Source: an uncultured Selenomonadales bacterium (GTDB lineage Bacteria; Bacillota; Negativicutes; Selenomonadales; Selenomonadaceae). From it: 37,980 nt of DNA. Position numbers and translations under genes: made by a program. Position 1 is the stretch's first letter. Each line of letters opens with the position of its first letter. The notes under the pieces are model-generated. The model searched no databases and had not been told where the DNA came from. It saw only the letters and a list, made by a program, of their open reading frames with translations. This document shows, in pieces, positions 73 to 33,368 of the stretch. The stretch lies in NCBI GenBank assembly GCA_946407095.1, contig CAMJMR010000024.1:1-37980 (forward strand), in the 5' to 3' direction.

Positions 73-74
73 AA

Positions 75-92
75 ATGCAACGTCACGTTGCC
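75..92 (+). repeat. REP-like palindrome, core-only copy
   Basis: ATGCAACGTCACGTTGCC, with arms GCAACG and CGTTGC around a TCA loop, is identical to the copies at 22068-22085 and 28299-28316. Here only the core is present. The roughly 55-bp upstream portion found in the other copies is replaced by the AGTTCCT tandem repeat. Confidence 0.8.
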
Positions 93-4618: not shown

Positions 4619-5990
4619 CTCCCCCGCCTAAAGAGGCGGGGGATTCATGAGAAGTTTGATAATTTAAGCTACCCTTATTCTCAAAGGTCTGTCCAAAAGA
4701 CCCACACACAGTCGCTCAAAATTGAGGTTCTGCTTGCTTTTGCGCAAAATGTTTGCCGCACCGTTCACGTCGGCATTGATTAACCTTCCGCTCTTCGACT
4801 TGTACAAACCGCGCCGAATTCGCTTGCCGCTAAATGTTCCCGTGTGGAATCTTTCCGCGTCGTATACGGGAATTTCGTCCAAATCCAAAAAGCTTGCCTT
4901 GCTCGTGTAACTTTCTTCCTGTTCTATGTAATTCATGCTGTAGCGGGCGCAAAGACTTTCCAACTGCCGACGAAGCGCGCCAAACGGAATCTGCGTGAAC
5001 TGTTGATTGATTTTCGCTCCAAGATTTATTCCGCGCTTGAAATCAGGATTGTGACCGCAAATTACCACCCCAATATCGTTGGCAATACAAAAGTTGATGA
5101 TGTAGCGGGCGGTTTTCTTCAAGCAGTCATTGATACGATTGTTGCGTTTCAGCGTAATTCGCTCTAAAAGTCTCGACGAGCAGCGTCCTTGTTTCATCAG
5201 AATTGATTGAAAATATGCGCGGCGTTTGTTCCAATTCCGATTAATATGTTTGATTTTACGTCCGTCCATGATGAACGAAGTCCCGAAATTGGTTACACAC
5301 GTCGCCAAATTGTCAAGCCCAATGTCAATCGCCAATGAATTATTGCGATTCAGTTGCAAATCTTGTTCGTCGATTTCATAGCAGTACGCAATTTTGAACG
5401 CACGCCCTTTGTACAACGGAATAATTTTCACTTCGCGAATTTTCTTGCCGATTAATCGCTCCGGCACTTTGATTTTGATCCGGTGACTGTTCAAGACGCT
5501 CGTATAGGTTCGACTTTGCGGCACAGTCAAATATCCGTCTCGAATACTGATTGAATTGCCGTTGATGATTAGGTTATACAAGCCGCCTTTCTTGCGATAG
5601 CGCGGCGGACGTGCACCTTTAACTTTACCGACGGAGCCGAAAAACGACCTAAACGCAAAGTCAACCGCTCGCAACGTTTGTTGTGCCATGTTCGACTGCA
5701 AAAGTTTGTAGTTATCGTTTTCCTTGCATTCGTGATAGTTCGCCTCAAAGCGCAAGTAAGTTTTTTCTTTGAAGAATTGCTGACGAACATTGTAGAGCGC
5801 GACATTGTACAGGCAGTTGCCGAAAAAGCACAGCTCGCGAAGTTGAAAGTATTCTGCTTTGGTTAATCCGCGAATCATATTTATTTGCGCCAGGTACATT
5901 TTATCACCCCCTTTCGGAGGAAGTATTACATGCTTTTAAGGAGAAGACAACTTGCGGTGGCGATTCATCCCCCACAAGCGGGGGTATTCT
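4619..5990 (-). mobile_element. TnpB-only IS200/IS605-type element (IS1341-like)
   Basis: The tnpB gene is flanked by G+C-rich hairpins typical of IS200/IS605 ends. At the 3' side (4621-4642) a 9-bp stem CCCCCGCCT/AGGCGGGGG has a four-base loop. At the 5' side (about 5969-5984) CCCCC/GGGGG sits next to GATTCATC. Both ends share the motif 'hairpin next to ATTCAT'. No tnpA transposase is present, so mobility would need a TnpA in trans. Exact cleavage sites cannot be fixed from one copy; boundaries are approximate. Confidence 0.8.
4664..5899 (-). CDS. tnpB: TnpB-family RNA-guided nuclease (OrfB), atypical catalytic centre
   Basis: A 411-residue IS200/IS605 TnpB homologue. It has an N-terminal OrfB helix-turn-helix/REC-like region and then a RuvC fold: RuvC-I LAIDIGLDNLATCVTN near residue 193, and RuvC-III NADVNGAANIL near residue 374. 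Where the RuvC-II glutamate is expected (near residue 281) the strand reads VVICGHNPDFKRGINLG, with no Glu. The nearest acidic residues are in QEESYTSKASFLDLDEIP near 327-340. The usual CxxC...CxxC zinc ribbon is missing; that segment reads GTFSGKRIRRGLYKSKSGR. Known TnpBs cut DNA guided by an RNA from the element's right end. This one belongs to a cysteine-less subgroup, and whether it cuts is uncertain. The ATG has a GGGGG-type upstream purine run. The frame is intact, arguing against old decay. Confidence 0.9.
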   Translation of the reverse strand: MYLAQINMIRGLTKAEYFQLRELCFFGNCLYNVALYNVRQQFFKEKTYLRFEANYHECKENDNYKLLQSNMAQQTLRAVDFAFRSFFGSVGKVKGARPPRYRKKGGLYNLIINGNSISIRDGYLTVPQSRTYTSVLNSHRIKIKVPERLIGKKIREVKIIPLYKGRAFKIAYCYEIDEQDLQLNRNNSLAIDIGLDNLATCVTNFGTSFIMDGRKIKHINRNWNKRRAYFQSILMKQGRCSSRLLERITLKRNNRINDCLKKTARYIINFCIANDIGVVICGHNPDFKRGINLGAKINQQFTQIPFGALRRQLESLCARYSMNYIEQEESYTSKASFLDLDEIPVYDAERFHTGTFSGKRIRRGLYKSKSGRLINADVNGAANILRKSKQNLNFERLCVGLLDRPLRIRVA

Positions 5991-9017: not shown

Positions 9018-9240
9018 AGCAGACGTTAAGGTTCGTTGGTAAGGAAGACGTTGCAAGGGACAGAGGCCGCCAAGGATGGCGGCCGCCGGCAACAAAAACA
9101 TGGAAGTTTTTTTGCCGGCATGAGCGTCTGACTGGGACGCGGGCGTTGCGGTGGTGGTCTGTATCCGCCCCCGCGAGGCGAGTTTCTTTGCTACTTTCTT
9201 TGCTCGGTCAAAGAAAGTAGTTAAGACTTCCAACGCACCC
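9018..9240 (-). repeat. Dispersed hairpin repeat, copy 1 (reverse orientation)
   Basis: This non-coding stretch follows the exporter. It begins near TTCGTTGGTAAGGAAGACGTTGC, a diverged TIR also seen inside the 25221-25540 element. It contains the palindrome GGCCGCC-AAGGAT-GGCGGCC and the perfect 12-bp inverted repeat CTACTTTCTTTG (9191-9202) / CAAAGAAAGTAG (9209-9220). The same order of motifs, reversed, is found at 12341-12614, 21090-21304 and 25270-25450. Confidence 0.8.
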
Positions 9241-12340: not shown

Positions 12341-12614
12341 GAAATGCCCTTTCGTTTGCTAAGCAAAAGGGCGCAAAGACAGCGTGGCTTGACATTCGCG
12401 GCACGTTCGTTCGATTCAGTTAATCGATGATTTCAAGTTTTAGAATCTACTTTTTCTTTGTTCGCCCAAAGAAAAAGTAGCAAAAAGAAAGTGCGCCTCG
12501 CAGGGGCGAAAGGTCGCAACCCGCGCCGTCCGATAATTTCAGCGTGGCTACGCCGACGGTTTTTGCATCACGCAAAAGCGTCGGCGAACGGCCGTCATCC
12601 ATGACGGCCTCTAA
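12341..12614 (+). repeat. Dispersed hairpin repeat, copy 2
   Basis: The 306-bp gap between vanW and comEC holds no gene. It carries ATGCCCTTTCGT...AAAAGGGC (a hairpin shared with 21090-21117), then CGTTCGTTCGATTC (shared with the MITE at 25221), then a 14-bp inverted repeat CTACTTTTTCTTTG (12447-12460) / CAAAGAAAAAGTAG (12467-12480). It ends with GGCCGTCATCCATGACGGCC (12590-12609), identical to 21282-21301. It is therefore a composite of several hairpins, probably a non-autonomous element. Confidence 0.8.
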
Positions 12615-21089: not shown

Positions 21090-21304
21090 AATGCCCTTTC
21101 GTTGGCTAAGCAAAAGGGCTCAAAGACAGCTTTAATGTTTATTACCTACTTTCTTTGACCGAGCAAAGAAAGTAGCAAAGAAACTCGCCTCGCGGGGGCG
21201 GAAGCCGACCACTGACGAAACGCCCGCGCTACCCGAAACCATCTGTGCCGGCAAAGAAACATCCCTGTTTCTGTTGCCGGCGGCCGTCATCCATGACGGC
21301 CTCT
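21090..21304 (+). repeat. Dispersed hairpin repeat, copy 3
   Basis: It lies between divergent carA and comF. Parts in order: ATGCCCTTTCGT...AAAAGGGC hairpin (also at 12344-12372), CTACTTTCTTTG (21146-21157) / CAAAGAAAGTAG (21164-21175), the CGCCTCGCGGGGGCG hairpin, GTGCCGGCAAAGAAAC...TTGCCGGC, and GGCCGTCATCCATGACGGCC (21282-21301). All lie in the same order as copy 2. It ends 27 bp before the comF start, so it may form the comF mRNA leader. Confidence 0.8.
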
Positions 21305-21330
21305 TAATTCAAGAATTGGAGGGAATGGCT

Positions 21331-22020
21331 ATGAAATTTTTGCTTGAGTTGTGGCAGGCAGCGATTTATTTTCTGTTCCCGCCGAGGTGCCCGAATTGTC
21401 GGGAGATGGTCGACGAACGCTATCAGCTCTGCGCGGCGTGCGAGCCGAAAATTTTGCGCGTCGATTTTTATTCGCGGCCGCCCGCGCCGCTTGATAAAGT
21501 CTTGCGCGTGACGCGTTACCGTGAAGGCTCAAGAGCACTCCTCCACAAGCTCAAGTTCGATAACAACTTGAACGTCGTGCCCGCGCTGAAAAAAATCCTC
21601 AACGACGTTTCAAGTCGCGAGGAAGTTTCGGAACTGCTTAAAGGCGTCGACTTCGCCGTGCCCGTGCCGCTTCACCAGGAACGCCTCAAGGAGCGCGGAT
21701 TCAATCAGACGGAAAAAATTTTCGGCGATTGGTTGGCGCGGAAAAATCTGTCGCTGAAAAATATTTTGGTCAGGACGCACGCAACGCCCAAGCTGTTCAG
21801 CCTCGGCAAGGCGGAGCGCGAAAAAATTTTGTCGGGAGCGTTCGCGGCGGCTGAAGGCGTCGACCTGCGCGGTCAAAGCGTCCTAATCGTCGACGACATT
21901 TTCACGACCGGCACGACTTGCAAGGAATGCGCCAAAGTTTTGAAAGACCTCGGCGCGGAAAAAGTTTCGGTGCTTGCCTTCGCCGCCGACTTCGACGACA
22001 ATCTCGGTAAACAAGCTTGA
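21331..22020 (+). CDS. comF: ComF family amidophosphoribosyltransferase-like protein
   Basis: 229 residues. The N-terminal zinc-finger-like part is CPNC...CAAC (residues 17-42). The phosphoribosyltransferase domain carries the PRPP motif SVLIVDDIFTTGTTCKECAK near residues 189-208, and the ComF signature PVPLHQERLKERGFNQTEKI is near 110. In Bacillus the homologue acts in late competence with the ComFA helicase; here comEC is nearby but no comFA is visible. ATG 21331 is seven bases after GGAGGG; an in-frame ATG at 21325 is too close to it. The last residues (NLGKQA) appear to be a replacement tail: the sequence coding the original end recurs beyond a REP-like element at 22086-22136, where it would read NLSSVNQRREV. 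Confidence 0.92.
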   Translation: MKFLLELWQAAIYFLFPPRCPNCREMVDERYQLCAACEPKILRVDFYSRPPAPLDKVLRVTRYREGSRALLHKLKFDNNLNVVPALKKILNDVSSREEVSELLKGVDFAVPVPLHQERLKERGFNQTEKIFGDWLARKNLSLKNILVRTHATPKLFSLGKAEREKILSGAFAAAEGVDLRGQSVLIVDDIFTTGTTCKECAKVLKDLGAEKVSVLAFAADFDDNLGKQA

Positions 22021-22085
22021 ACGCGGCGATGAATTGAAGTCGTAAGCGGGTTGGGCGCGTCATCTGGATGCAACGTCACGTTGCC
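22013..22085 (+). repeat. REP-like 3'-end element, copy after comF
   Basis: About 73 bp from AAGCTT, spanning the comF stop, through CGCGGCGAT and GGGCGCG to GGATGCAACGTCACGTTGCC. It aligns end to end with 28243-28316. A perfect 21-bp repeat of the upstream comF tail (21984-22004) follows at 22086-22106. Confidence 0.85.
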
Positions 22086-22107
22086 CGCCGACTTCGACGA
22101 CAATCTT

Positions 22108-24188: not shown

Positions 24189-24340
24189 CAAGAGCTTATG
24201 ATGTTCGGCAACGGCGGAAGTTTTTTCAGTTCCACAGCCGAACTCGAAATTTTTGTTGATTCCCTCTCGCCGCGCAAAAGACGGTTCAAGCTGTCGTCCT
24301 TCCCGCACGGGATACATTGACTTTCAAGGAGGCGTTAAGC

Positions 24341-24370
24341 ATGGGTGAAGTTATAATTGCCATCGACTAA
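24341..24370 (+). CDS. Nine-codon ORF MGEVIIAID, module copy 1
   Basis: ATG to TAA encodes MGEVIIAID, preceded by a near-perfect site AAGGAGG (24326-24332) eight bases upstream and followed after 10 bp by a strong terminator. The whole unit recurs at 25559-25626 with peptide MGEVIILVG. Conservation of ribosome binding site, start, peptide and stop suggests translation. It could be a leader peptide, a tiny functional peptide, or part of a regulatory RNA. I do not recognise it. Confidence 0.5.
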   Translation: MGEVIIAID

Positions 24371-24380
24371 AAATTTTCGG

Positions 24381-24408
24381 GCTCGTTCCACTCGGAGCGG
24401 GCTTTTTT
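24381..24408 (+). terminator. Terminator of module copy 1
   Basis: Stem GCTCGTTCC/GGAGCGGGC (two G-T pairs) with loop ACTC, then TTTTTT. It is identical to 25599-25626 and would separate the nine-codon ORF from the glycine-zipper gene at 24504. Confidence 0.85.
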
Positions 24409-24503
24409 GTTGGCGAAGGCTACCCGCGAGGTACTCGTCCGACAAAAATTTTTTTCGTACAATGGGTTCAGTCAAAATTTTTCTCGGCAGGGAGATTAAA
24501 ACT

Positions 24504-25223: not shown

Positions 25224-25540
25224 GGACTGTTGGTAAATGAAATCGTTCCTTCGATTCGTCGTTTAGCATCTACTTTCTTTGTCTGGGCAAAGAAAGTAGC
25301 AAAGAAACCCACCACTGCGCGTGGAGCGTCTTACCGACCACCGCCGCAATGTCCGCGCTACCCGAAGTCGCTCGTGCCGCTATGAAACCTTCCAGGTTTC
25401 GAGTGGGCGAACGCGCGTCCATGCACGCCCTCATCCCCTGCAACGTCTTTGTTAATTTACCAACACGCCCTAGTTTAACCAACTTAAAGCTATCGAGAAG
25501 CCGAATCCGAATCGCCAATTCAATTTACCAACAGCCCCTA
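25221..25540. mobile_element. MITE with 18-20-bp terminal inverted repeats, TA duplication
   Basis: The left end TAGGGACTGTTGGTAAAT (25221-25238) and the reverse complement of the right end, TAGGGGCTGTTGGTAAAT (25523-25540), match at 17 of 18 positions. Inside lie the dispersed hairpin CTACTTTCTTTG/CAAAGAAAGTAG (25270-25299) and a second, internal TIR-like block near 25442-25458. There is no transposase gene. TA at both edges suggests a TA target duplication, as for IS630/Tc1-like transposases, though assignment is uncertain. It separates the small-protein operon from the second nine-codon module. Confidence 0.82.
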
Positions 25541-25558
25541 AAACAGGAGGCGTTAAGC

Positions 25559-25588
25559 ATGGGCGAAGTTATAATTCTCGTCGGCTAA
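25559..25588 (+). CDS. Nine-codon ORF MGEVIILVG, module copy 2
   Basis: ATG to TAA encodes MGEVIILVG, with CAGGAGG eight bases upstream and the same following AAAATTTTCGG spacer and terminator as copy 1. Against copy 1 the peptide differs at three of nine residues, all at the end, while ribosome binding site, first six codons and terminator are conserved. It begins 18 bp after the MITE's right end. Confidence 0.5.
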   Translation: MGEVIILVG

Positions 25589-25598
25589 AAATTTTCGG

Positions 25599-25626
25599 GC
25601 TCGTTCCACTCGGAGCGGGCTTTTTT
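25599..25626 (+). terminator. Terminator of module copy 2
   Basis: Same stem, loop ACTC and TTTTTT tail as 24381-24408, base for base. Confidence 0.85.
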
Positions 25627-25633
25627 GTTTCCG

Positions 25634-25662
25634 TTGACAACGCGGCGGGCTTGTGATAAATT
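25634..25662 (+). promoter_or_regulatory. Strong promoter of a short RNA upstream of ilvB
   Basis: Consensus TTGACA (25634-25639), 17 bp, TAAATT (25657-25662) with an extended TG at 25654-25655. No ORF with a ribosome binding site follows before a terminator at 25722-25764. Confidence 0.7.
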
Positions 25663-25911: not shown

Positions 25912-27609
25912 TTGAAAATGAACGGAGCGCGAGCACTGCTTGAGAGCCTGAAGAATGAGGGCGTTGAATTGGTATTCGGCTACCCCGGCGGCGTCGTGCT
26001 GAAACTTTACGACGAAATTTATAAAATGAAGTTCCCCAACATCTTGACGGGACACGAACAGGGCGCGGTGCACGCGGCTGACGGCTACGCGCGGGCAAGC
26101 GGCAAGGTCGGTGTCGTCATAGCCACGAGCGGCCCCGGCGCGGCGAATTTAATCACGGGCATCGCTACCGCCTACATGGATTCGATTCCGCTGGTCTGCA
26201 TAACGGGACAGGTCGCCAACCACGCCATTGGCAAAGATTCTTTCCAAGAGGTCGACGTTTACGGCATAACCACGCCGATAACCAAGCACAACTACCTTGT
26301 CAAGGATGTGCACGACTTGCCGCGCGTCGTCAAGGAAGCGTTCTTCATTGCGCGCACGGGCAGGCAAGGCCCCGTTTCGATTGACATTGCCGCTGACGTT
26401 TTCAATGCCGAATGCGATTTCAACTACCCCGAAACGATAAATCTGCGCGGCTACAGCGGGAAAAATCCTGTGGCGGAGGTTGCGATTGAGGAAGTCGTCA
26501 AAGCGGTTGAGTCTTGCTCTCGCCCGCTGATTTTCGTTGGCGGCGGCGTGATAAGCTCGGAGACTTCAGACGACTTGCGCGCGATAGTAAAGCGGCTCGG
26601 TTGCCCGTCGACTTCGACGCTTATGGGGCTCGGCTGTATCGACGCCGACACTGACGGCTTTTTGGGCTTCGCGGGTATGCACGGCTCATACGGCGCGAAC
26701 ATGGCGATTCAAACTTGCGACTTGCTTTTGTGTATCGGAATGCGTTTCAGCGACAGAGTGACGGGACGCGTCAAAGATTTTGCTCCGAACGCCAAGATTG
26801 TCCACTTTGAACTCGACCCCGCCGAAGTCAACAAGAATGTCCAAGCCGACTTGAAAGTTATCGGCGACCTGCGTCAATCGCTGCCGTTGTTCAGAGAAAA
26901 GCTCGATGCCGCGCAGATTGACTTTGCCGAAAAATTTTCCGCGTGGAAGGCTCAAGCCGTCGACAAGGGCGCGGAACATCCCTTCAGCTGGACGGACGAA
27001 GGCGACGAGATTAAACCCGGCGCACTTATCAGCAAAATCAGCAGTATCTGCGACGAAAATACAATCGCCGTCACTGACGTCGGTCAACATCAAATGTGGG
27101 CGGCTCAATTCTTCAAAGCGCACAAGCCTCGCCAATTTTTGACGTCGGGCGGCTTGGGAACTATGGGCTACGGCTTGCCCGCCGCCATGGGCGCGAAGTT
27201 GGCTTGCCCCGACAAAAACGTCGTGCTGTTCACCGGCGACGGCTCAATCATGATGAACGTCCAGGAACTCGCCACGCTCGCCGACAACGACATCGACGTT
27301 AAGATTGTCATCGTCCACAACTTTATTCTGGGCATGGTCGGGCAATGGCAACGGCTTTTCTACGAACATCACTATTCGGCGTCCGAACTCAAATGCAAGC
27401 GCGACTTTGTGAAGATAGCGGAGGCAATGGGACTGCGCGGCTACCGCTTGACGAAGGCGGAAGAGCTTGAAGACGATTTGGTAGAAATTCTGTTCTCGAA
27501 GGGCGCGGCGGTTATCGACGTGTGGGTGCCCGAAGAGGAAAACGTTTTGCCCATGGTGCCGGGCGGCAGGCGGCTTGACCAAATGGTTTTGGGGAGCGCG
27601 AAGGAATGA
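25912..27609 (+). CDS. ilvB: Acetolactate synthase large subunit
   Basis: 565 residues. The ThDP enzyme makes acetolactate or acetohydroxybutyrate, the first common step of Val/Leu/Ile synthesis. The Pyr domain carries GYPGGVVLKLYDE and the catalytic Glu in LTGHEQGAVHAADGYARA near residue 50. The middle domain has the FAD-type region FAGMHGSYGANMAIQTCDLL. The PP domain has GDGSIMMNVQELATLADNDI near 445-465. The motif after it reads HNFILGMVGQWQ where NNxxLGMVRQWQ is usual. TTG 25912 is eight bases after AAGGAGG; ATG 25918 is the alternative. No small regulatory subunit (ilvN) follows; yigZ overlaps its stop by four bases instead. The enzyme may use a small subunit from elsewhere. Confidence 0.93.
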   Translation: MKMNGARALLESLKNEGVELVFGYPGGVVLKLYDEIYKMKFPNILTGHEQGAVHAADGYARASGKVGVVIATSGPGAANLITGIATAYMDSIPLVCITGQVANHAIGKDSFQEVDVYGITTPITKHNYLVKDVHDLPRVVKEAFFIARTGRQGPVSIDIAADVFNAECDFNYPETINLRGYSGKNPVAEVAIEEVVKAVESCSRPLIFVGGGVISSETSDDLRAIVKRLGCPSTSTLMGLGCIDADTDGFLGFAGMHGSYGANMAIQTCDLLLCIGMRFSDRVTGRVKDFAPNAKIVHFELDPAEVNKNVQADLKVIGDLRQSLPLFREKLDAAQIDFAEKFSAWKAQAVDKGAEHPFSWTDEGDEIKPGALISKISSICDENTIAVTDVGQHQMWAAQFFKAHKPRQFLTSGGLGTMGYGLPAAMGAKLACPDKNVVLFTGDGSIMMNVQELATLADNDIDVKIVIVHNFILGMVGQWQRLFYEHHYSASELKCKRDFVKIAEAMGLRGYRLTKAEELEDDLVEILFSKGAAVIDVWVPEEENVLPMVPGGRRLDQMVLGSAKE

Positions 27610-28244
27610 ACTTCAAGACGGTTGCTGACGGCGAAATTTTCGGCGCGGCTTACGAAGTCAACAAGTCGAAGTTTCTGGCGCACGTTCGGCACGTCGAAAG
27701 CGAAGAATCTGCGCGGGACTTCGTGCTGACGATTCGGAAGAAATATTTCGACGCGACGCATAATTGTTCGGCGTGGGTGCTCGGTGAGCGCGGCGACAAA
27801 CAGAAATCGAATGACGATGGCGAACCGGGCGGCACGGCGGGCAATCCGATTTTGGAGACGATAAAAAAGAACGGCTTGACGAACTGCGCGGTCGTCGTGA
27901 CGCGTTACTTCGGCGGAATAAAACTCGGCGCGGGCGGCTTGATTCGGGCTTATTCGCACACGGCAGCACTCGGCATCAATGCCGCGCGCCTCGTGCAGAT
28001 AACCGCCTTCCGAAAACTTTCCTTGACGCTCGAATACAATTTCTTGGCGACGATCGAAAATTACTTGCGCAACAAAAAAATCAGCGTCACCCACACCGAT
28101 TACGCCGATGTCGTGACGCTGGATTTGATTTTGTTGCCCGCGCAGGTCGAAGGCTTTTTGGCGGAACTGAACGACTTGACTGCCGCGAATTTTTTATGCG
28201 AAGAGCTCGGTGAAGTACTTATCCCCGTCGAAGTCGAACATTAA
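27606..28244 (+). CDS. yigZ: YigZ/IMPACT family protein
   Basis: 212 residues. The N-terminal UPF0029/IMPACT domain has EVNKSKFLAHVRHVESEESA, NCSAWVLGERGDKQKSNDDG, EPGGTAGNPIL and the signature VVVTRYFGGIKLGAGGLIRAYS (about 100-120). The C-terminal ferredoxin-like DUF1949 domain is about 140-205. The biochemical role is unsettled; the eukaryotic relative IMPACT affects translational control. ATGA overlap with ilvB shows coupling. The C-terminal codons (LGEVLIPVEVEH) are repeated past a REP-like element as LGEVLIPVAVEA, suggesting the gene end was replaced. Confidence 0.92.
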   Translation: MNFKTVADGEIFGAAYEVNKSKFLAHVRHVESEESARDFVLTIRKKYFDATHNCSAWVLGERGDKQKSNDDGEPGGTAGNPILETIKKNGLTNCAVVVTRYFGGIKLGAGGLIRAYSHTAALGINAARLVQITAFRKLSLTLEYNFLATIENYLRNKKISVTHTDYADVVTLDLILLPAQVEGFLAELNDLTAANFLCEELGEVLIPVEVEH

Positions 28245-28361
28245 GCTTAAGCGCGGCGATAACGTTCAAAGTGTCGGACGGCACGGCGCGCTATCAGGAT
28301 GCAACGTCACGTTGCCGAAGAGCTCGGTGAAGTGCTTATCCCTGTTGCGGTTGAAGCGTAA
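28243..28361 (+). repeat. REP-like 3'-end element after yigZ, with duplicated gene tail
   Basis: The element (28243-28316) matches the copy after comF end to end, closing with GGATGCAACGTCACGTTGCC. A second yigZ tail at 28317-28361 follows. It matches 28200-28244 for 25 of its first 26 bases; most later changes are at third codon positions. On the other strand this duplicate encodes the C-terminus TLQPQQG of the DUF262 gene. Confidence 0.85.
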
Positions 28362-30405
28362 ACCAAATTTCGTCCTTGCAGTTGGTATCGCCCATTCGGT
28401 CGAAGTTGTCCACGAGGATTTTCGCCATCCTTAAGCAGGTCTTGGTATCGAAGTCAATCTTCATGTAAAAGCCGTCGTCGATTTTGAAATTCGTCGGCTC
28501 GGTCTGAAACAGCCTTTTGGGAACGTTTTCAAGTTGCGTCGCCTTGCGGAAGGTGTCCTTGTCCAGCGCGTAGAGTTGTTTCGCAATTTCCCAAAGCAAC
28601 CGGTTCCAATGCGTCATTTTCATTTCCTTGCCGAAGACGGAAAGGGTCGCGGGCTTCGTATAAGTGAAGGCGTTGAAGTCCCCCTCCAACTTGAAAATTT
28701 CCGTGGCGTTTTGGATTGTCGCGTTGAACTCTTCGGGCAACGTCCAGACTTTGACGGCCGCCGCCGCCAACTTTTGAGCCCGCGCCTGAATCTGTTTGCT
28801 TGTCCATTGTGAATCGCCGCTTAACGTCTTCGTGAAGGAAAAACACGACCGCGCATAGCGGATTTTTTTTTGCTCGAAAATGTCGCCGCGTCCCCTTTCC
28901 GCACCGTTGACAAGCGTCTGGTTGCCCAAAGCTTGAGTCCACGGCTCGTGAGATTGCAAACCGCCGCGCTCGGTCAGATAACTTTTCCAAGCGGTATTGG
29001 GCTTTTTCGGCAGAATTTGTTCGACGGCAACGTCCGAATATGCAGGCAAAGTTTGCGGGCTCTCCGCCCGCTCCAAAGAGTAAAGCAGATACTTGAAGCC
29101 GTCGCTTTTTATGCGGTCTTGCAAGTCGGTATTCATCAGCGCGGCTTGAAAGTCGTTGTCGTTGGGAAAAGCGCGGTCGCCGCTGCCGAAGGTTATCGCC
29201 TGCCAAAAAGCTTTTTCGGTCAAAGGATTTTCCTTGTCGAGGCGCGCAAGGACGTTGCCCGCGAATTGTTGGTCGATGCCGTTGCGCTTGCAAGCCTTGG
29301 CGCGGAAGGCAAGCGAAATCATTGCGTCGACGAACTTTATAAACGTCGCCTCGTCGAAGTGATTTTGTTCGTAACGGTCAAGCAGATACATCAGGATAAT
29401 CGGCGCGTTGTCGGCTTTGAGCAGAAAAGTCAGCTCGTAAAATTTTTTATCAAGCGCGGACAGGTCAGCGAAGGCGATTTCGGCACTGAAGAGGCACCGT
29501 TTGAACAGTTTGGCGTAGCGGAGCATGTCGCGCAGGCAAACTTCGGCGTCGGCGTCGAAAAATTTTTCGTACTCGACTTTGAATATCTCGTAAAGATTTT
29601 TGTTGCTTAGCTGCCGCTGCCCGTCCGATATGGCATTCGATTTGCGCTTGGTTATCAGATACTGCACCATGAACTTTTCGACGCTGTTCGACGGGCGCAG
29701 GAGCTCTTCCACCTTCAGCCAGTAATTTTTGTACATCGTCGTTTGCAGGTCGTAAGCAAGCGGCATGAGCAGAAAATTTCTAACCAAATCCGTTTGCGAA
29801 AGGTTGAGCCCCGTTGAGTTCAGCGATTCAAAAATTTCTTGCGGGTTTTCCTTGTCGAGGCAAATGCTTACGATGTTCAGCTTATCTATCGCGTCGCAAA
29901 AATCTTCGTGCGTGAGATTCGACTTGGCAATTTCTTCGCGGAAGAAACGATAATTTCTGTACATGGCGGAGGATTTTTCGTCGTCGGTGAAATCGTCCGC
30001 GCCGTCCATAATTTTTTGGAAAACGCCTTGGTCGAATTCGGTCGGGCGCAAACGAAATTTATTTTCCGCGCCGCAGGAGGTGTGCCTTAAAAATTTCGCA
30101 TTGATGTTCGCCTTCAAGCTGTCGTCGGCAAAGTCGTAAAGGGCGCGCGCGAATAGGATAATGCTTGCGATTCGCTGTTGCCCGTCGATTATCGTGTAGT
30201 CTTGAAAAATATCGTCGGCGGGCGTGCTTTGATAGACGAACGTCCCGATAAAGTGCGGCTTGCCGTTCGTGACTATGCGAATCATATCGTTGAACAGTTG
30301 CGCGCAATGCGTCGCCTTCCAATCGTAATTGCGCTGATAGACGGGAATGACCAAAGTCACTTCGCCCGACATGAATTTTTTAAAAGTATCTTTACCGGCT
30401 TGCAC
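28336..30405 (-). CDS. DUF262/DUF1524 (GmrSD-like) protein with altered HNH motif
   Basis: 689 residues. The N-terminal DUF262 ParB-like domain has VIPVYQRNYDWKATHCAQLF and the nucleotide-binding DGQQR near residue 76. A helical middle follows, then a C-terminal DUF1524 domain with WTQALGNQTLVNG and a K-K-I-R-Y-A-R-S segment. GmrSD-type enzymes restrict modified DNA using an HNH-like 'EHILPQ' motif; here the aligned stretch reads VEQILPK near residue 464, the His being replaced by Gln. It may have lost nuclease activity or use another residue. I chose GTG 30405, eight bases after GGAGG; ATG at 30435 is the alternative. It stands alone, convergent to yigZ and divergent from ybaK. Confidence 0.85.
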   Translation of the reverse strand: MQAGKDTFKKFMSGEVTLVIPVYQRNYDWKATHCAQLFNDMIRIVTNGKPHFIGTFVYQSTPADDIFQDYTIIDGQQRIASIILFARALYDFADDSLKANINAKFLRHTSCGAENKFRLRPTEFDQGVFQKIMDGADDFTDDEKSSAMYRNYRFFREEIAKSNLTHEDFCDAIDKLNIVSICLDKENPQEIFESLNSTGLNLSQTDLVRNFLLMPLAYDLQTTMYKNYWLKVEELLRPSNSVEKFMVQYLITKRKSNAISDGQRQLSNKNLYEIFKVEYEKFFDADAEVCLRDMLRYAKLFKRCLFSAEIAFADLSALDKKFYELTFLLKADNAPIILMYLLDRYEQNHFDEATFIKFVDAMISLAFRAKACKRNGIDQQFAGNVLARLDKENPLTEKAFWQAITFGSGDRAFPNDNDFQAALMNTDLQDRIKSDGFKYLLYSLERAESPQTLPAYSDVAVEQILPKKPNTAWKSYLTERGGLQSHEPWTQALGNQTLVNGAERGRGDIFEQKKIRYARSCFSFTKTLSGDSQWTSKQIQARAQKLAAAAVKVWTLPEEFNATIQNATEIFKLEGDFNAFTYTKPATLSVFGKEMKMTHWNRLLWEIAKQLYALDKDTFRKATQLENVPKRLFQTEPTNFKIDDGFYMKIDFDTKTCLRMAKILVDNFDRMGDTNCKDEIWFTLQPQQG

Positions 30406-30476
30406 AGGCACCGCCTCCAAAAAATTTTCCGTCATTATAAAAATCTGCGCGGAAATTTTCAACACGGGCGGCGCGG

Positions 30477-31676: not shown

Positions 31677-31737
31677 AGGTTGTTACGCGGCGGCTTGCGT
31701 GCTCCGATTCGGCGATTCAATGACTTTTGAGTTGATT

Positions 31738-31782
31738 AACTACTTTCTTTCACCGAGGAAAGACCCGCTTTAGAAGCGGGGG
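31738..31782. repeat. Truncated dispersed repeat joined to an orphan IS200/IS605-like end
   Basis: CTACTTTCTTTCACCGAGGAAAG matches the first arm and loop of the dispersed hairpin and then stops abruptly at ACCCGCTTTAGAAGCGGGGG. That hairpin is like the ends of the TnpB element (CCCCCGCCT...AGGCGGGGG). No tnpB is present. It could be a relic insertion. The rest of 31677-31903 holds only the small ORF listed next. Confidence 0.5.
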
Positions 31783-31859
31783 AACAGCTGGTACGCGGAG
31801 ACTACCTTTAAGCCGTCAACGATTTTCAACGCGTCCGCTGGGTCAAGCATCACGCTCAA
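31770..31859 (-). CDS. Possible 29-codon ORF or gene remnant
   Basis: TTG start at 31859 five bases after GGGAGGTG, encoding LSVMLDPADALKIVDGLKVV then SAYQLFPRF. The last four codons come from the IS-like hairpin, so this may be the 5' remnant of a longer gene truncated by insertion. Only the ribosome binding site supports it. Confidence 0.3.
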   Translation of the reverse strand: MSVMLDPADALKIVDGLKVVSAYQLFPRF

Positions 31860-33300: not shown

Positions 33301-33368
33301 GGAGCAACGTGACATTGCCTCCAGATAGCGCGTTCAATTGCCCACAATTTCAATCGCTCGCCGCGCTG
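33301..33368 (-). repeat. Diverged REP-like 3'-end element after the oppF-like gene
   Basis: Read on the minus strand: GCGCGGCGAGCGATTGAA ... ACGCGCTATCTGGAGGC, then AATGTCACGTTGC. It aligns with the copies after comF and yigZ, with one change in the left arm of the palindrome, and again starts just past a stop codon (oppF-like stop at 33378) in the gene's orientation. No duplicated gene tail follows it. Confidence 0.65.

Follow-up and report, generated by a model that had tools for sequence, protein, structure and literature searches.

A hairpin-ended repeat and its accompanying duplicated gene borders in a genus of Selenomonadaceae

In an uncultured Selenomonadales bacterium the gene yigZ ends twice. 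On the window studied here (the whole stretch of DNA that was analysed, 37,980 nt of contig CAMJMR010000024.1), one copy of the gene end is joined to the body of yigZ, a short repeat follows, and behind the repeat a second version of the same gene end overlaps a convergent gene. Where does the additional end come from, and what part does the repeat, hereafter element E, play in its origin? The features at yigZ and at the other copies in the window are as follows.

27606..28244, + strand: yigZ (UPF0029 family; open reading frame, PF01205 at 1.6e-39, PF09186 at 1e-10), ending in tail 1
28199..28244, + strand: tail 1, the gene-end copy joined to the yigZ body (direct repeat D12), with its stop codon TAA at 28242-28244
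28251..28315, + strand: element E in its short form, 65 nt, from GCGCGG to GGAT (28297-28300) and the hairpin GCAACG-TCA-CGTTGC (28301-28315), of which the genome holds exact copies
28316..28361, + strand: tail 2, the native yigZ end, beginning exactly at the 3′ tip of E; part of it doubles as the DUF262 C-terminus on the opposite strand, an overlap also found in relatives without E
28336..30465, − strand: gene of a DUF262/GmrSD-type protein (PF03235 at 1.1e-34, PF07510 at 1.3e-13), convergent to yigZ, with its stop codon (28336-28338) within tail 2
21983..22004, + strand: upstream member of the duplicated pair around the second in-window E (22 nt, 0 mismatches)
22021..22084, + strand: second in-window E, directly 3′ of the stop codon (22018-22020) of a zinc-ribbon/phosphoribosyltransferase gene ending at 22020
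22085..22106, + strand: downstream member of the duplicated pair around the second in-window E (22 nt, 0 mismatches)
74..92, + strand: hairpin copy near the contig start with 1 mismatch before the hairpin; no duplication seen there
33303..33321, − strand: degenerate hairpin copy with 3 mismatches

The two yigZ tails are identical over their first 18 nt, after which 9 of 28 positions differ. Read in the yigZ frame, these amount to 4 synonymous and 2 non-synonymous codon differences, tail 1 ending in EELGEVLIPVEVEH and tail 2 in EELGEVLIPVAVEA, each directly before its stop. The translated C-terminus of the DUF262 protein in the window is EIWFTLQPQQG. The first-pass annotation had described an element after yigZ together with a diverged but protein-conserving copy of the tail, and this description holds. 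At the second in-window locus (21983-22106) the likeness between the copies stops beyond the 22-nt duplication.

Structure and distribution of element E

The constant part of E is its 3′ hairpin, a perfect 6-bp stem with a TCA loop that directly follows a tetranucleotide. This is usually GGAT; a second set of copies has GGGT and a changed stem. A pattern scan also returned the hairpin variant GGGTCAAGCGTCACG, with the full stem CAAGCG-TCA-CGCTTG at L065. The 5′ part differs from copy to copy, with long, short and other forms: the RCGCGG start of the short form lies 48-52 nt before the hairpin in 85 distinct copies and is lacking in 8. Copies from different loci are never identical (0.96 over 48 nt at most), identical copies being confined to arrays. 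Within the copies of the genus no covariation was found in the 5′ module, and the alignment energy was no better than that of row shuffles. A search of Rfam at the gathering threshold, covering the window and four loci, yielded a single match, a tRNA, and no known structured RNA for E.

The 15-nt hairpin GCAACGTCACGTTGC occurs in 113 exact copies in the genome from which the window stems (G000; 2.6 Mb, 101 contigs, 89% complete), compared with 0 for a reversed-pattern control. Of 66 genomes of the genus, which appear to be MAGs, 40 contain it. A 251-nt query found matches in 15 of 41 genomes, all of the same genus, and in 0 of 16 others; some of these matches are yigZ itself. Most of the own-genome copies are located at or beyond gene ends. 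The 3′ tip may also lie flush, with zero spacing, against the 5′ end of tRNA-Phe (L003, L144, L219) or tRNA-Gly (L043) and, in antisense orientation, against the 3′ end of tRNA-Pro (L173). Array spacings of 86 and 87 nt were found both at L128, where the hairpin is carried by public Quinella sp. records, and in G045, a genome of the same genus.

In public genomes the string GAT plus hairpin was found in at least 112 stretches, a number counted without a chance expectation. Hosts among the matches listed include Selenomonadaceae, Clostridia, Fusobacteria (among them Propionigenium maris DSM 9537), Planctomycetes, Verrucomicrobia and others. No convincing recurrent protein-coding partner near the hairpin emerged among the 148 public loci listed. 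In Propionigenium maris (L133, L142, L153, L179, L206) the hairpin terminates another conserved repeat, and at L142 and L153 it lies in terminator T-tracts. Viral contigs contributed 36 stretches (L230-L265), likewise counted without a chance expectation, and in several of them the hairpin lies just before a start codon on the opposite strand. These viral copies, which carry no duplication in those inspected, may be unrelated to E. Named phages gave no match to E and plasmids five weak partial matches. Literature searches on the 15-mer hairpin and on GGATGCAACGTCACG retrieved no paper, and judging from these searches E appears to be undescribed so far.

Duplications at the hairpin tip

Using anchored detection, we found a duplication in 46 of 100 distinct own-genome E copies with full flanks: DNA from the 3′ tip of E onward recurs upstream, mostly as the end or the start of the upstream gene. 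The two loci in the window, whose common architecture had been pointed out before, are two of these 46, and the recurrence is far above chance. When local alignments were left unanchored, 43 of 48 duplications (two of the 48 coming from other genomes) started at offset 0 from the hairpin 3′ tip; for the remaining five the offsets were 1, 2, 2, 2 and 17. Over all loci 80 of 229 copies have a duplication with a readable upstream flank, with a median length of ~40 nt and a range of 15-238 nt, the longest of which span array units. For most of the 46 copies, E has the gene with the duplicated stretch on its left. Joining of the tip to a position upstream would produce this arrangement in any case, so that it adds no independent evidence.

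The base after the hairpin is a pyrimidine in 220 of 229 distinct copies (C163, T57, G7, A2; 1.33 bits). Over the 80 joints no other position between -30 and +44 exceeds 0.24 bits. The information is thus concentrated at the first base after the tip, and the joints carry no TAM or PAM. The base preceding the target joint is mostly not C, which counts against a simple cleavage-dinucleotide rule of the REP type, and a hairpin at the target joint was not generally enriched relative to other offsets. At L038, L065, L030 and L031 arrays combine identical or nearly identical E with different gene-end alleles; at L062 two forms of E share a single joint.

The copies of a gene end differ like two naturally evolved versions of the gene. 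All 27 gene-end pairs together show 58 synonymous versus 55 non-synonymous codon differences, where 22% synonymous would be expected (p 1e-11). Keeping 21 of the 27 pairs gives 54 synonymous versus 29 non-synonymous differences (p 7e-17, with pairs that share an array not being independent); the 6 dropped, the second in-window copy among them, are pairs in which homology stops, which have zero differences or which are not gene ends. In several pairs stop codons are swapped yet retained, and at L038 the second and third of three tails differ from the first solely at synonymous sites. The earlier suggestion that the second tail is unlike a newly made target duplication therefore gains support from many genes. 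The identical run beside the tip often extends over 18-45 nt before the copies diverge. Differences cluster away from the tip (14 loci having three or more differences, combined Fisher 8e-11), a signal driven by L004, L005 and L069; no clustering was seen in five of the 14 (L028, L030, L032, L041, L104).

Relatives and the Mini-RNase III locus

yigZ is present in 61 of 66 genomes of the genus. In three relatives without E (G062, G020 and G077) the DUF262 (GmrSD) frame already ends within the yigZ 3′ end, with the C-termini EIWFTIKPQSE, EIWFTLRAE and EISFTLRQAE. We conclude from this shared overlap that the native end is tail 2, with tail 1 as the additional copy. The idea in the first-pass annotation of a displaced tail that 'now' encodes the DUF262 C-terminus is not supported. 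A hairpin motif within 300 nt behind yigZ was found at 0 of 29 other yigZ loci, G000 being the only case among 30. Gene-end replacement, as the process had been called, is a fair description of the product, whereas the import of the end from a donor is an inference, no donor allele with E having been found among these 29 loci. Tandem duplications of yigZ borders also occur without E: of the head in G060 and G058, and of the tail in G001 (loci L335, L307 and L098).

Eight cross-species pairs of E matches were examined. Three of them, L048/L204, L071/L151 and L056/L154 (the duplication at L154 was called by eye, the script having missed it), share exactly the same nucleotide at the joint; they represent mrnC, another gene start and one gene end. 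In L031/L195 the joints lie ~5 nt apart, and the remaining four pairs are not comparable joints. By eye, resemblance between the copies in orthologous pairs seems greater inside one species than across species.

An in-frame E within a coding gene was seen at L071 and in a gene which we take to be mrnC (Mini-RNase III), which, according to the translations, overlaps the end of a gene presumed to be cysS. E lies in frame on the coding strand in 7 of 30 mrnC loci, with the exact hairpin in 6 and an altered one in G070. Judged by eye, its left edge is constant within about a nucleotide. On the right, the joint comes after one of five codons (P, K, L, G or D), and the frame is open in all. The head copies show synonymous differences in 6/15, 5/15, 6/14 and 2/15 codons and 0, 2, 1 and 1 non-synonymous ones; between species without E we counted 0.33 synonymous differences per codon. 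The mrnC copies of E are closer to one another than the average E, the best mrnC partner ranking 1, 2, 6, 7, 22 and 30 among 222. This likeness hints that a single old E in mrnC may have been followed by later, independent duplications. At L048 and L341-L370, E can be read in frame as lengthening Mini-RNase III at its N-terminus (GNVTLHP...), the head peptide being present twice.

Possible origin of the duplicated borders

We tentatively read E as a REP-like repeat whose tip becomes joined to an upstream pyrimidine in a sister or allelic copy, which would produce both the E-bounded duplications and the mosaic gene ends; in our judgement this comes close to an even chance without quite reaching it. 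What is observed is the architecture, the exact 3′ edge, the pyrimidine rule, the coding-type divergence, the arrays and, by eye, the fixed left edge with its variable right joint in mrnC; together with the cross-species pairs that share a joint and the REP architecture, these speak for the reading, while the mechanism is inferred. A strand ending at the hairpin tip would be joined, presumably by an enzyme, to a pyrimidine lying ~15-130 nt further upstream on a homologous copy of that region. Joining to the sister strand would lead to tandem tail-E arrays, joining to another allele to chimeric ends, and the product would have the order gene, tail 1, E, tail 2, native flank. Such a product would persist when both neighbouring genes retain a full end, as the duplication ensures. 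At yigZ the gene body is followed by tail 1 and E, the native tail 2 being retained for the convergent DUF262 gene. E would have arrived first and the duplications later, each ending at the tip. Three observations fit such a two-step history: in mrnC the left edge stays constant while the right joint moves, arrays combine near-identical E with differing tails, and many copies of E have no duplication. Exchange between alleles is argued from the apparently unused tails that fail to decay and from the identical stretch near the tip; a donor was not found. Several observations count against joining at the tip: no donor allele is seen at the other yigZ loci, yigZ borders are duplicated in tandem without E, five of 14 loci lack clustering of differences, and arrays that combine identical E with different tails are not predicted by import of a tail-E unit.

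Could E instead be a non-autonomous transposon? Its insertion would have to make long, variable target-site duplications (~15-130 nt), after which tail 1 would evolve in its role as gene end, tail 2 would be constrained differently, and homologous recombination between strains would mix the alleles. This is a serious rival, if a rather unlikely one. The exact 3′ edge with direct repeats flanking E, the E-less yigZ-DUF262 sites of the three relatives and copies joined at one site within other E copies (L044, L065, L083) would all follow from it. However, the duplication is undetected in 54 of 100 copies, seemingly unused tails stay intact, as in the three tails of L038, the left edge of E in mrnC is fixed while the right joint shifts, and no transposase family tracks E. 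A duplication range of ~15-130 nt is also unusual for a DNA transposon. We consider it improbable that ordinary unequal homologous recombination or slippage duplicates gene borders in this genus and that E is a bystander inside: the E-less tandem copies of yigZ head and tail speak for such a process, but it is already poorly compatible with the 43 of 48 duplications bounded exactly by the hairpin tip, and the pyrimidine rule stands against it as well. The titled related records are mostly MAGs and the tails resemble two alleles, so that chimeric tails might be ascribed to strain mixture in metagenome assembly. This is very improbable, as the junction of E and tail would have to exist in reads, identical joints occur in separately assembled genomes of other species, and the frame is open across all seven mrnC insertions.

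Joining at the hairpin tip may belong to a broader process, a one-ended, homology-aligned recombination in which an enzyme joins the tip to the homologous DNA of a different allele. Genes would thereby gain a foreign 3′ or 5′ end and a hairpin tag, with their own end retained behind it. Borders would then be exchanged between species without loss of either neighbour, in several bacterial phyla; we regard this generalization as doubtful. If joining at the tip as such were right, a tiny non-coding repeat would act as a precise breakpoint at which overlapping or abutting genes can be separated without damage. E would build arrays of alternative gene ends and add in-frame N-terminal peptides to a conserved RNase, between-species recombination of gene borders would become testable, and a hairpin-specific enzyme would be implied.

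Candidate movers were sought among known enzyme families. The RAYT/Y1 transposase (PF01797) occurs in 7 of 66 genus genomes and is absent from the E-rich G000 (89% complete), G064, G070 and G078; among the seven only G013 is E-rich (19 copies), and its PF01797 match is a fragment. A reverse transcriptase (PF00078), as expected of a TPRT-like retroelement, is absent from G000 and from the 99%-complete G064 with its 43 exact hairpin copies. TnpB is absent from the E-rich G064 and G021 and present in G000, G060, G070, G077 and G078; the window itself encodes a TnpB-like protein (4664-5899, − strand; PF01385, PF07282). The Y2 transposase (PF04986; IS91/Helitron-like) gave no match anywhere, with the controls likewise silent. 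Y1/RAYT, reverse transcriptase and TnpB families thus do not track E, which speaks against tip joining as well as against insertion.

Among known systems, the REP/RAYT (TnpA-REP) pair is the nearest model. In the excerpted account of PMC8266576, REPs consist of a perfect palindrome with a 3-nt loop directly preceded by a tetranucleotide, and a single-strand transposase cuts them beside the hairpin, on its 5′ or its 3′ side. E is likewise high-copy and mostly intergenic and, like the group 3 S. maltophilia REP of that account, combines a tetranucleotide, a perfect palindrome and a 3-nt loop (PMC8266576). In contrast to REP with its GTAG, E has GGAT in the main set and GGGT in the second, carries an extra ~50-nt 5′ module and duplicated gene borders, lacks the RAYT family in the E-rich genomes tested, and its GAT plus hairpin string recurs across several phyla. 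Rickettsia palindromic elements (RPE) insert in frame, as far as the excerpt of PMC10969869 describes them, and the in-frame E copies in mrnC, which add a peptide to a housekeeping protein, and at L071 may be comparable; unlike RPE, E lies mostly outside genes, has one fixed end and is accompanied by a duplicated gene border. With MITEs E shares its shortness, its multiple copies and the lack of a gene of its own, but it has no terminal inverted repeats at both ends, and it comes with long and variable direct repeats that have diverged. In TnpB/IscB omega-RNA elements a structured 3′ end is immediately followed by sequence matching a nearby target. E resembles them in exactly this arrangement, whereas its joints have no adjacent motif and TnpB does not track it.

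Another dispersed repeat family in the window is longer than E and has CTACTTTCTTTG/CAAAGAAAGTAG hairpins (9062-9234, 12343-12383, 21090-21310, 25261-25400, 31731-31783), and elsewhere in the genome some E copies adjoin sequence resembling this family. Two further 100-nt repeats (24327-24426 and 25545-25644) are 88% identical, each made up of a very short reading frame with a terminator-like stem behind it.
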